Assembly: GCA_012520575.1 (NCBI GenBank)
Contig: JAAYOB010000034.1
Coordinates: 1 to 25,711, forward strand
DNA from: Candidatus Stramentimicrobium fermentans
GTDB taxonomy: Bacteria > Atribacterota > Phoenicimicrobiia > Phoenicimicrobiales > Stramentimicrobiaceae
Length of the DNA stretch: 25,711 bases
Direction of reading: 5' to 3'
In this document: piece by piece, positions 22,815 through 25,711 of the stretch
Layout of the letters: each line of letters begins with the position of its first letter
How positions within the stretch are numbered: the stretch's first letter is position 1
The notes under the pieces: generated by a model
What the model was told of the DNA's origin: nothing
What the model saw: only the letters and a program-made list of their open reading frames with translations
The model's database searches: none
Program-made: the position numbers and the translations under genes

Positions 22815-24986
22815 TTACTTTATTACCGGTATGCCACTTCGTGAAATTCCCTTACCCGTATTACCACTTTTTTTGATAGGTATTGCTATTACTCCGGCTG
22901 GAGTTCCTGCATCTCCACTATTATTATAAAGATTATGTGCTTGGGTATAATTGAATGTTCCATAACTATTATCGGTGGCTTTCCATATAGCACCCTGTAT
23001 ATATCTATAATCGCTTACTGCAGGATGTTCCCTTGCTTTCTCTAATATTGCCCATACCTTTTCAATCTTACCCGGAGTATAGTGTCCACCGAAAACATCT
23101 GCGGGAATACTTGCAGTTTCTGCCGGATACAACAGAACATCATACTCGATACCTGAACTAATAGGCATATTCAGAGTAACACACCAACCGATATCTTTGC
23201 CAAGAATGGTATGGGTATAACCCTCTGCAGTTAATTTAACGACTCTGAAGTATGTTTGACCGGTTCTCTTTATTTCTAATTTTCCCGCTACACCAGTATG
23301 ATTCTTTACATAAGATAGTAGAGCTCGATCTTCAATTAATATATGCTGGACACCCTTTTCTTGCGCAAAATGTGCAGTCAACAAAACATCTTCTGGGGGC
23401 ATAGTGTAATTGAAATTAGCCTGTTTACTTATTTCAGCTCCATCCTTGGTCCAATTTACAAAAAAGTAACCATTGCTAGCTTGAGCACTAACCGGAACAA
23501 CGGTACCTTCCTCATAATTTCCGTCTCCAGAAGTAGTACCGCCCCCAATAGGAGAAGACTCAGTTGTTAGATTATATTTTGCCGGTGCCGGATCCATAGT
23601 AACTGTGGCAGTATCATTATCGGTGACGTTTTGATCGTTAGTTACGGTAGCAACGTTTACTAATGTCCCTGCTTCCAGTTCTTCCTGAGTAACTGTGTGT
23701 TCTTTGGTACCGGTAGTAGTTGCACCAGGAGCAAGTGTGGTTGCACCTAGATTAATATTGCCTAACTTATCATCATTTACCTTGACATTGGTCAGTTTTA
23801 CACCGCCGGTATTCTCTACCTTATAGGTGTAGGTAACTTTTTGACCGGCTGCTGTGACGGTAGTCGGACTGGCAGTCTTAGTGATCTTTACTGCTGGTGG
23901 TTCATAGGTATTGGCAAAGATAACTTCAATATTTTGGCCATTGTTTTCGAGTTGTGCTGTGCCGATACGACCACTGGTAGGAGCTGCTTCACCGACTTGA
24001 ACCGTAGTAGACCATCCCTCACCGGGATCTGTCTCAGTGATGGTGTAGCTGCCCATGGCTAAACCGGTAAGATTTTTACTGTAATTACCTTCATCCGGAA
24101 GCACGAAGTCTTTGCTGTAATTATTGGGTCCGGTAACGGTAAATTCAAATTGACCATCTTCAACCGGAGTGCATTCTGACTGTGTTCCACCTCTTAGAAG
24201 CATATTGCAATCATTATCTACTACTTTAGTGATGGTTAAAGACCCTACTCTGGGACTCGGAGTCGGACCGCCACCACCTCCGGTAGCTCCGGGGGAAGGT
24301 GTGCAGCAGTTCCATTCACAGATTAAGTCTACCAGGTCTTCATACTGGTCATCACAGTATTCACCGAAGTCGATATGTGCCATTATAGCCGGAATATCTA
24401 CTTTGTTGACATCTTTGGCAATCTTCTCTACCAGGTTGTAGATGCTGGCATTGGTGAGCTTGCCGAAACATCTGTACCAGTCATTGTAGCAATTGTTAAT
24501 CTTTTCGATTACCAGGGCTAAGGCGGTTGAGGTACAATCGGGGATACCGGCATCTAGGCCTATGCCTTCTATTTTTTGGGCTACATCTTTTACCAATAAG
24601 TTATTATCTGTTTTATGGGTTTCGGGGTCGGCACAGTAGGCGGTAATGATGTATAGTCCGGGTTTGACATCTTCGAATTGGTAGTTACCGTCTTCATCGG
24701 TGATGGTGGTATCCAGTATCCTTCTGCAGGATCCTCTCTGGGCGGATTTTAATTCTACTACGGCGTTGGCTATTATGGCCCAGTCTTCTGTCTCATCGCA
24801 ATCACCAACTACCGGTACTTCTCCTGATAGATCACATGCACAGAGTACGGGTAATTTGATCTGACCGCTGATGGTTCTAACATCTTCGGTGGCACCGGGT
24901 GAGGGGATAACACTGTTACAGCCGGCAAATATCAGTATAGTCAACGCAAGTAAGACAAAAGGTAAATAAATGCGTAGTTTTTTCAT
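22815..24986 (-). CDS. Multi-domain surface lipoprotein with C-terminal thioester-domain-like module
   Basis: A 723-aa exported lipoprotein. The signal helix (residues 5-22) ends in the lipobox IFAGC, so Cys23 is the lipidated residue. Residues 34-228 are Cys-rich, with a transthyretin-like stretch (ITDEDGNYQFEDVKPGLYIITAYC) and a helical part, then a GGGGGPTPSPR linker. Beta modules follow: SpaA/Cna-B-like (about 247-362, SLTITKVVDND...SYTITETDPGEGW), DUF11-like (about 365-466, VKITKTASPTTVTAAGQKVTYTYKVENTG) and an InlB/Flg_new-like repeat (about 470-541). The last module (about 548-700) has IGWCVTL with Cys602 and YIQGAIWKATD with Gln664. These match the Cys and Q-x-AIW-x-x-TD signatures of thioester domains, which bond covalently to host or partner amines. 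There is no LPXTG signal. The start is ATG with AAGGAG 8 bases upstream. The leader carries a c-di-GMP-I riboswitch and a terminator. Confidence 0.85.
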   Translation of the reverse strand: MKKLRIYLPFVLLALTILIFAGCNSVIPSPGATEDVRTISGQIKLPVLCACDLSGEVPVVGDCDETEDWAIIANAVVELKSAQRGSCRRILDTTITDEDGNYQFEDVKPGLYIITAYCADPETHKTDNNLLVKDVAQKIEGIGLDAGIPDCTSTALALVIEKINNCYNDWYRCFGKLTNASIYNLVEKIAKDVNKVDIPAIMAHIDFGEYCDDQYEDLVDLICEWNCCTPSPGATGGGGGPTPSPRVGSLTITKVVDNDCNMLLRGGTQSECTPVEDGQFEFTVTGPNNYSKDFVLPDEGNYSKNLTGLAMGSYTITETDPGEGWSTTVQVGEAAPTSGRIGTAQLENNGQNIEVIFANTYEPPAVKITKTASPTTVTAAGQKVTYTYKVENTGGVKLTNVKVNDDKLGNINLGATTLAPGATTTGTKEHTVTQEELEAGTLVNVATVTNDQNVTDNDTATVTMDPAPAKYNLTTESSPIGGGTTSGDGNYEEGTVVPVSAQASNGYFFVNWTKDGAEISKQANFNYTMPPEDVLLTAHFAQEKGVQHILIEDRALLSYVKNHTGVAGKLEIKRTGQTYFRVVKLTAEGYTHTILGKDIGWCVTLNMPISSGIEYDVLLYPAETASIPADVFGGHYTPGKIEKVWAILEKAREHPAVSDYRYIQGAIWKATDNSYGTFNYTQAHNLYNNSGDAGTPAGVIAIPIKKSGNTGKGISRSGIPVIK

Positions 24987-25052
24987 TTGGAAAACTCCTT
25001 TTCATTATTTATATTTTTTAATACCTTTTTTACCAAGTGTTACTAAGAAAGC

Positions 25053-25080
25053 AAAAACCCCAGTGGAGAACCCATGGGGT
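25053..25080 (-). terminator. Leader terminator between riboswitch and lipoprotein gene
   Basis: On the minus strand ACCCCA (25075-25080) pairs with TGGGGT (25057-25062), with an inner GG/CC pairing and a short loop, followed directly by TTTTT (25053-25057). It lies between the riboswitch and the start codon, 66 bases ahead of the ATG. It therefore acts as the expression platform, stopping or letting through transcription according to ligand. Confidence 0.8.
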
Positions 25081-25090
25081 AAATATAAAT

Positions 25091-25217
25091 AATAAAAAGT
25101 CGGTAGTCTGGCAGTCGTAGTCTGCACCGCTGATTGTCTGTCTCTAGTAACAGACCTTAGACCCAGAACTTTGCGTCCTGTCCTTTCGGGCAGTTTACCT
25201 TTTTCAACTTTTTATTT
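25091..25217 (-). ncRNA. Cyclic-di-GMP-I (GEMM-I) riboswitch
   Basis: Reading the minus strand, the core matches the GEMM-I aptamer. GGTAAAC (25193-25199) is followed by a P2 arm capped by a GAAA tetraloop (CTGCCC-GAAA-GGACAG), then the invariant GGACGCAAAG (25169-25178), GGTCTAA of the tetraloop receptor, a P3 hairpin (25136-25155) and a closing CTACCG. P1 is a long AT helix: AAATAAAAAGT (25207-25217) pairs with ACTTTTTATT (25091-25100). In Vibrio Vc2 numbering the base at G20 is G, which favours c-di-GMP over cGAMP (the G20A variants). A47 of the GCAAAG loop is present. P3 is longer and more irregular than in Vc2. Confidence 0.85.
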
Positions 25218-25404
25218 CTCATGCGATAGGCATCACCCTTTTCAATATATATTTATATAAAAATTTAAGCTAAAACAATATAGCTAAGTTGATGAGTAGA
25301 TTTTTATACTCCATACTATCATTATTCCACATAAAATAATTTTTAGACATTGTTTTGGGAAATAATTGGGATTATTTTTTAAGTAACCATACTATCGGGC
25401 AACT

Positions 25405-25433
25405 ATAATACCATACTTGTCAAAATATTTCAA
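25405..25433 (-). promoter_or_regulatory. Promoter of the riboswitch-lipoprotein transcript
   Basis: TTGAAA (25428-25433), exactly 17 bases, then TATTAT (25405-25410) on the minus strand. It begins 11 bases upstream-side of the TPR gene stop, so the lipoprotein has its own transcript starting near 25398. Confidence 0.7.
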
Positions 25434-25443
25434 CCAATAAATA

Positions 25444-25711
25444 TTATTTTTTTCCTGCTAATTTGCGCTGCGCTTCTTTGACCCAGTAATCGGCTTTAGC
25501 ATTGCCCGGTTCTAAGTTCAGTACCTGCGTGTAATTGTTGATGGCTTGCTGATAATCACCAGCATCAAAATAGACTCTTCCCAACCAGTAGTAGGCATCA
25601 ATAAATTTGGGATTCAATCTCACTGCCTGCCGATAAGAGTCGATAGCACGGCTGTAGTTTCTTTTCTCGTATTCGTTATAACCCTGTTCATACCAGCTAT
25701 AGGCTTCTTTA
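25444..25711 (-). CDS. TPR-repeat protein (C-terminal 88 residues only)
   Basis: The frame is open to the window edge and ends in TAA at 25444-25446. Two tetratricopeptide repeats are clear: YEQGYNEYEKRNYSRAIDSYRQAVRLNP and AYYWLGRVYFDAGDYQQAINNYTQVLNLEP, with the typical W/L-G-Y-A-P spacing. A short basic tail (VKEAQRKLAGKK) follows. TPRs form scaffolds for protein-protein contact. The start and any N-terminal domain lie outside the window, so no role is assigned. Confidence 0.88.
   Translation of the reverse strand, partial: KEAYSWYEQGYNEYEKRNYSRAIDSYRQAVRLNPKFIDAYYWLGRVYFDAGDYQQAINNYTQVLNLEPGNAKADYWVKEAQRKLAGKK

Follow-up and report, generated by a model that had tools for sequence, protein, structure and literature searches.

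A c-di-GMP-I riboswitch ahead of a surface lipoprotein gene in an Atribacterota genome, predicted to act as an ON switch mainly at translation

By sequence and structure, a genuine c-di-GMP-I (GEMM-I) riboswitch, whose aptamer presumably binds c-di-GMP, lies ahead of a surface lipoprotein gene in Candidatus Stramentimicrobium fermentans (Atribacterota). The pairing options of the leader suggest that c-di-GMP probably turns the lipoprotein ON, mainly at the level of translation. The window, a stretch of 25,711 nucleotides, is the whole of one contig (C16) of a 1.58-Mb genome. The leader was found on the minus strand (the original prediction gave no strand) and comprises, in order, a promoter-like element, an SD-like element, the aptamer, a hairpin followed by U5, a Shine-Dalgarno sequence (SD) and the lipoprotein gene (Table 1). 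The TPR gene upstream of the leader is found in the same place, ahead of the leader, in three relatives (G001, G003 and G006). Five GGDEF domains are encoded in the window's genome, indicating that c-di-GMP is probably made by the host. A second GEMM-I is located on contig C34 of this genome, and a third is cut off at the end of contig C33. The latter (G000:C33:14478-14545; L003) lies upstream of a C39-peptidase-like lipoprotein gene, the counterpart of which is preceded by a tandem GEMM-I in relatives.

Table 1. Features of the riboswitch leader and its neighbouring genes in the window.
Feature	Coordinates	Strand	Remarks
Promoter-like element	25321-25349	-	TGTCTAAA (25349-25342), N12, TGGAATAAT (25329-25321); 1 mismatch to the consensus of most GEMM-I leaders in the order
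SD-like element	25219-25238	-	GGGTGATGCCTATCGCATGA, conserved; possible 4-codon frame ATG CCT ATC GCA TGA (25233-25219)
Segment A	25205-25217	-	P1 5' strand; partner of segment B when the aptamer is formed
c-di-GMP-I (GEMM-I) aptamer core	25099-25209	-	RF01051, 66.8 bits
Segment B	25081-25099	-	P1 3' strand and tail; 19-nt perfect complement to segment C
Intrinsic terminator	25053-25080	-	Hairpin 25080-25057 and U tract; stem pairing kept in five relatives despite sequence change
Segment C	24995-25016	-	AAATATAAATAATGAAAAGGAG; 3' end is the Shine-Dalgarno AAGGAG (25000-24995)
Surface lipoprotein gene	22815-24986	-	723 aa; start at 24986
TPR protein gene, upstream	25444-25710	-	C-terminal part; gene cut by the contig end

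The RF01051 covariance model, proposed in the original prediction as a check, matched the aptamer over its full length (model positions 1-87) with a score well above the gathering threshold of 35 bits (E 2.8e-11). The core motifs named in that prediction (GGTAAAC, the GAAA loop, GGACGCAAAG, GGTCTAA and CTACCG) were all present in the alignment, and the long P1 that it described was also found, as an extended helix of 12 bp between 25217-25205 and 25102-25091. The segments AAAAAGG, GACGCA and CUACCG align to the family consensus, and the pocket residues of the family, which we take to be G20, A47 and C92 (Vc2 numbering), are intact; G20 distinguishes c-di-GMP sensors from cGAMP sensors. Both the GAAA tetraloop on P2 and its receptor in P3 could be seen in the alignment, and P2 contains non-standard pairs in the window and is fully paired in G003. 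The aptamer shares with the RF01051 family its sequence, structure, pocket residues, GAAA loop and place ahead of a surface protein gene, whereas it differs in having U rather than C after GG (U22, a wobble with a conserved G) and in the extension of P1 to 12 bp.

The hairpin downstream of the aptamer, ACCCCAUGG-GUUCU-CCACUGGGGU followed by U5, has a folding energy of about -12.3 kcal/mol. It was not matched in a strict terminator scan, probably because its stem is bulged. In five further genomes, the stem differs in sequence yet still pairs (-12 to -16 kcal/mol, U5-7). Such changed but consistently paired stems, each with a tract of five to seven U in the six leaders, indicate that the hairpin is a real terminator, which bears out the terminator with T5 claimed earlier. 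On the other hand, the mutual exclusion of aptamer P1 and terminator suggested in the original prediction did not appear on folding. When the RNA was truncated at the U tract and folded at equilibrium, the terminator stem formed with a probability of 0.985-1.000 in all six leaders, whether P1 was forced or free. No sequence segment common to the aptamer and the terminator was found, and folding as far as the U tract, with P1 either free or forced, revealed no ligand-dependent terminator/antiterminator pair. A 6-nt pairing of GGUAAA with UUUACC was considered as an antiterminator and dropped, as it showed no competition in the fold.

These findings bear directly on the claim that termination itself depends on the ligand, in which c-di-GMP would alter termination at 25080-25053 and turn the gene either OFF, as in C. 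difficile class I, or ON, as in Bc2 of B. thuringiensis. The hairpin and U tract are kept in six genomes despite changed stems, the aptamer 3' end doubles as part of a terminator in other GEMM-I leaders of the order, and there is precedent for both polarities, since class I switches of C. difficile work via termination and Bc2 via read-through. However, hairpin and aptamer have no bases in common in this leader, the pairing of the hairpin is unaffected by P1 in all six leaders, and the sole upstream complement seen is the non-competing 6-nt segment mentioned above. Transcriptional control by the ligand is therefore considered unlikely here. The terminator folds independently of P1, and the helix that does exclude P1 sequesters the SD. 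Thus, the favoured model takes the terminator as a real attenuator that would lower read-through upstream of a translational switch. The lesson of this single leader may be that even a conspicuous terminator is not necessarily what is regulated.

The P1-excluding helix was identified between segments B and C. Segment B, made up of the P1 3' strand and a tail (25099-25081), is perfectly complementary over 19 bp to 25016-24998, running into the SD, and this B:C helix is perfect in all six orthologous leaders (the window, G001, G003, G006, G007 and G009), where B reads CUUUUU(A/G)UUAUUUAUAUUU and forms 19 contiguous pairs with C, AAAUAUAAAUAAU(G/A)AAAAGG. Across these leaders, B:C has an energy of -15.6 to -16.6 kcal/mol, compared with -7.1 to -10.3 kcal/mol for P1 (A:B). 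A complementary run of 19 nt was reached by only one of 20,000 shuffles of the window's leader with the same composition. In the order's other leaders that are followed by a gene at 60-200 nt, the runs were mostly 7-12 nt, a comparison in which the run of G007 was undercounted (its start was miscalled); one unrelated leader, G017:C242, also has a run of 19. Both B and C are nearly invariant in the six leaders, whereas the spacer from the terminator to C has come to differ in both length and sequence. Compensatory changes inside B or C are few (A-U to G-U and G-U to A-U only), and the support for the helix therefore rests on its conservation against the diverged spacer.

Equilibrium folding, which ignores cotranscriptional kinetics and constitutes, together with sequence, the evidence on mechanism, was further used to follow the fate of the SD. 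With 12 nt of coding sequence included, forcing P1 eliminated the pairing of the SD to B in each of the six leaders (0.44-0.64 before, 0.00 after), and the unpaired fraction of AAGGAG rose in five of them (0.26 to 0.63 in the window; flat in G003). The tail of B stayed on the first half of C under these conditions, matching branch migration. With 40 nt of coding sequence, release of the SD was clear in the window, G001 and G009, weak in G003, and absent in G006 and G007. Sequestration has an energetic advantage of about 2.4-6.2 kcal/mol, a range that could be paid by ligand binding. Since the conserved competitor of P1 is the helix sequestering the SD, the arrangement points to translational control and to ON polarity.

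In the proposed mechanism, transcription would start at the alternative-sigma promoter upstream (25349-25321). Without c-di-GMP, B would pair with C over 19 bp, overlapping the SD, and translation would be low. Binding of c-di-GMP is expected to stabilise P1, formed by A and the first part of B, which would displace the SD-proximal half of B:C through branch migration and so free the SD; the B tail would keep its pairing with the first half of C. The terminator between B and C, for which no ligand-dependent alternative was found on folding, would lower read-through. This reading is supported by the finding of the same riboswitch-gene pair again across the order and by the five GGDEF domains of the genome. 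Against it stands the fact that the terminator acts before C is transcribed; moreover, an unregulated terminator would be wasteful, implying that an antiterminator may have been missed.

A somewhat less probable alternative than ligand-controlled termination is dual or incoherent control of the kind described for Bc1 of B. thuringiensis, in which both the terminator and the SD would respond and a third factor (possibly a sigma factor, a protein, or a ribosome at the upstream SD-like element) would set the net outcome. Both leaders have an aptamer, a long platform, an intrinsic terminator and an occludable ribosome-binding site, and a conserved SD-like element lies directly upstream of P1 in the window. 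However, the ligand traps the ribosome-binding site in Bc1, a polarity opposite to that predicted here, and no third factor was identified in the present analysis. It is also very improbable that the leader is inert, with a real aptamer but constitutive SD sequestration and termination: non-responsive switches have been documented (the genes downstream of Bc1 gave no response, and just 11 of 16 c-di-GMP riboswitches of C. difficile are functional), but six genomes of the family have kept the aptamer, B, C and terminator as a set while their flanks diverged, which argues otherwise.

The translational ON reading is best placed beside known systems, of which C. difficile, B. thuringiensis, Vibrio and Geobacter are the usual comparison organisms for c-di-GMP riboswitches. 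Class I switches upstream of adhesins are already known: in B. thuringiensis, the class I aptamer Bc2 lies ahead of cap, which encodes a collagen adhesion protein, and acts as an ON switch (PMC4933901, PMC6366702). As with Bc2, the class I aptamer of the window lies ahead of the gene for an adhesin-like protein and the direction, here predicted, is ON, but Bc2 works through transcription read-through, whereas the exclusive helix in the window covers the SD. The Bc1 leader (of mcpE) shows dual control and combines a long platform, terminator(s) and an occludable ribosome-binding site (PMC11218506). Its two terminators differ in how far they unfold, and its ribosome-binding site is trapped by the ligand, whereas the window has one terminator and a predicted release of that site. 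In C. difficile, c-di-GMP controls motility, pili and surface proteins, with class I (flgB) acting OFF via termination and class II (pilA1) serving the pilus; in Atribacterota, by contrast, class I aptamers were found ahead of pilin genes. If the layout of this leader does predict ON polarity, similar layouts could offer a route to predicting the control of many unstudied adhesion and pilus genes.

A surface lipoprotein downstream of the leader had been expected, and the gene was indeed found there. Besides a lipobox, the protein contains CarboxypepD_reg/SdrD_B-like, DUF5979 and DUF7507 domains as well as an InlB-type repeat (Flg_new_2); its C-terminal domain carries the motifs WC and QxxIW. 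The N-terminal ~250 residues were found again in five genomes of its own family (G001, G003, G006, G007 and G009) and in several from a second family of the order, always downstream of a GEMM-I; the C-terminal domains vary among the orthologs. In G007 (C50:32649-33262; L060), the frame of the ortholog is broken by stops and the leader is conserved. The WC/QxxIW module was not found in 23 relatives of the order; weak matches came from two genomes of the phylum at a greater distance.

The original prediction had further called the protein a covalent-type adhesin, which is unproven. Thioester domains carry the motifs [YFL]C and TQxx(hydrophobic)W (PMC6194298), and their bond-forming Gln lies near the C-terminal strand in published examples. 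The C-terminal domain of the lipoprotein contains GWCV and IQGAIW, of which Cys, Gln and Trp are kept in three aligned domains, and the residue before Cys is W rather than Y, F or L. No bond-forming Gln could be recognised in the last strand (GVIAIPI) of the three-domain alignment, and the TED profile (PF08341) had no match in the lipoprotein, the genome, or two relatives of the C-terminal domain. A PDB sequence search and a single-sequence structure model (pLDDT 32), like Pfam, lent no support to a thioester adhesin, and the idea was set aside.

The promoter-like element of the window belongs to a type, TGTCTAAA-N12/13-GGGAATAAT, that was detected ahead of 66 of 110 GEMM-I leaders of the order (at least 14 of 17 positions matching a consensus partly derived from the scored leaders themselves). 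Shuffled sequences reached 14 matches in 7 of 330 cases and never more, and reverse strands never exceeded 13. The 110 leaders include orthologs and are not independent, yet they lie ahead of many unrelated genes. A strict form, TGTCTAAN13-14GGGAATA, occurred 63 times in 24 genomes of the order (one match in the reversed control) and was absent from 26 other genomes of the phylum; 47 of the 63 matches are followed, at a distance of 32-335 nt, by a GEMM-I on their own strand. The element resembles the GTTT-N13-17-GGGWAT type of promoter. A sigma-70 site at 25433, found on the right strand in a standard scan (10 of 12 positions), was superseded by the conserved element. Relaxed matches in the window's genome number seven, including the window leader, a sigma gene on C34 and three pilin genes on C17. 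The latter (C17:55759-58649) are pilin-like genes with the promoter element ahead of them and no detected aptamer.

Sigma genes preceded by a GEMM-I, with the same promoter as the other leaders, were found in seven genomes of the family. Among sigma families, TIGR02980 (SigB/SigF/SigG) matched these proteins best (E 2.5e-26 and 7.1e-26), with scores of 92.8 and 91.3 bits, far below the subfamily cut-off of 234; in the present lineage, however, the gene lies behind a GEMM-I aptamer. A second pair of sigma relatives adjoins pilin genes. Strong relatives (E < 1e-30) were limited to the order and one further genome (G024), and matches elsewhere in the phylum were weak and mostly in RpoD-sized frames. 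The sigma gene of the window's own genome (G000:C34:3935-3195; L001, L068) is shortened by a stop near its C-terminus relative to its relatives. We infer that the riboswitch-linked sigma factor may read the TGTCTAAA-N12/13-GGGAATAAT promoter. It is quite possible, if short of probable, that an order-wide, self-reinforcing feed-forward regulon exists, in which the SigB/F/G-like sigma factor would be transcribed from its own promoter type under the gate of a GEMM-I riboswitch, and the same promoter would drive pilins and dozens of surface-protein genes, the latter being GEMM-I-gated themselves. If so, one second messenger would be read twice, at sigma production and at each target mRNA, and surface attachment would be commanded by c-di-GMP at both levels. 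In the open-licence literature, no evident precedent by title was found for feed-forward control that combines a c-di-GMP riboswitch and an alternative sigma factor, and no paper brought together c-di-GMP, riboswitch and Atribacter-. This uncultured phylum appears to be heavily reliant on c-di-GMP riboswitches and to possess both a promoter dedicated to them and a sigma gene under riboswitch control.

Several further patterns were observed among the GEMM-I leaders of the order. An SD-like sequence, AGGAGGUGAU, was present ~25 nt upstream of 23 of 25 GGUAAA aptamers (U after GG) and of 5 of 87 GGC aptamers (Fisher 6e-17, with orthologs not independent); the survey included the window (25238-25193) and leaders of G001, G003, G005-G007, G009, G010, G013, G014, G016, G017 and G019-G023. 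A leader peptide was rejected as its role, as no consistent frame or start codon was found across the leaders carrying it. Among the leaders grouped with the window, the gap between the element and the ATG is only about 2 nt, which makes initiation doubtful. A Stab-SD was likewise rejected, the element being ~70 nt from the predicted transcription start and not at the 5' end.

In other leaders of the order, the P1 3' strand itself contains the SD (CCGAAGGAG beside the start codon; G010:C201, G013:C10, G019:C39, G023:C34 and G021:C29:20570), and such aptamers are predicted to be OFF switches, opposite to the window. Terminators that reuse the aptamer 3' end (CUGCC/GGCAG or CUACCAAC/GUUGGUAG, followed by U6) were seen in G010:C13, G013:C1, G014:C318, G017:C113, G019:C375 and G020:C96; these leaders are predicted to be transcriptional ON switches, a kind of control that probably exists in this lineage. 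Class I GEMM elements also lie upstream of type IV pilin genes in G010:C145, G018:C4, G021:C29 and G022:C40. Tandem GEMM-I elements, common in bacteria, also occur in these genomes of the order, and the GEMM-I load reaches 13-15 per roughly 2-Mb genome.
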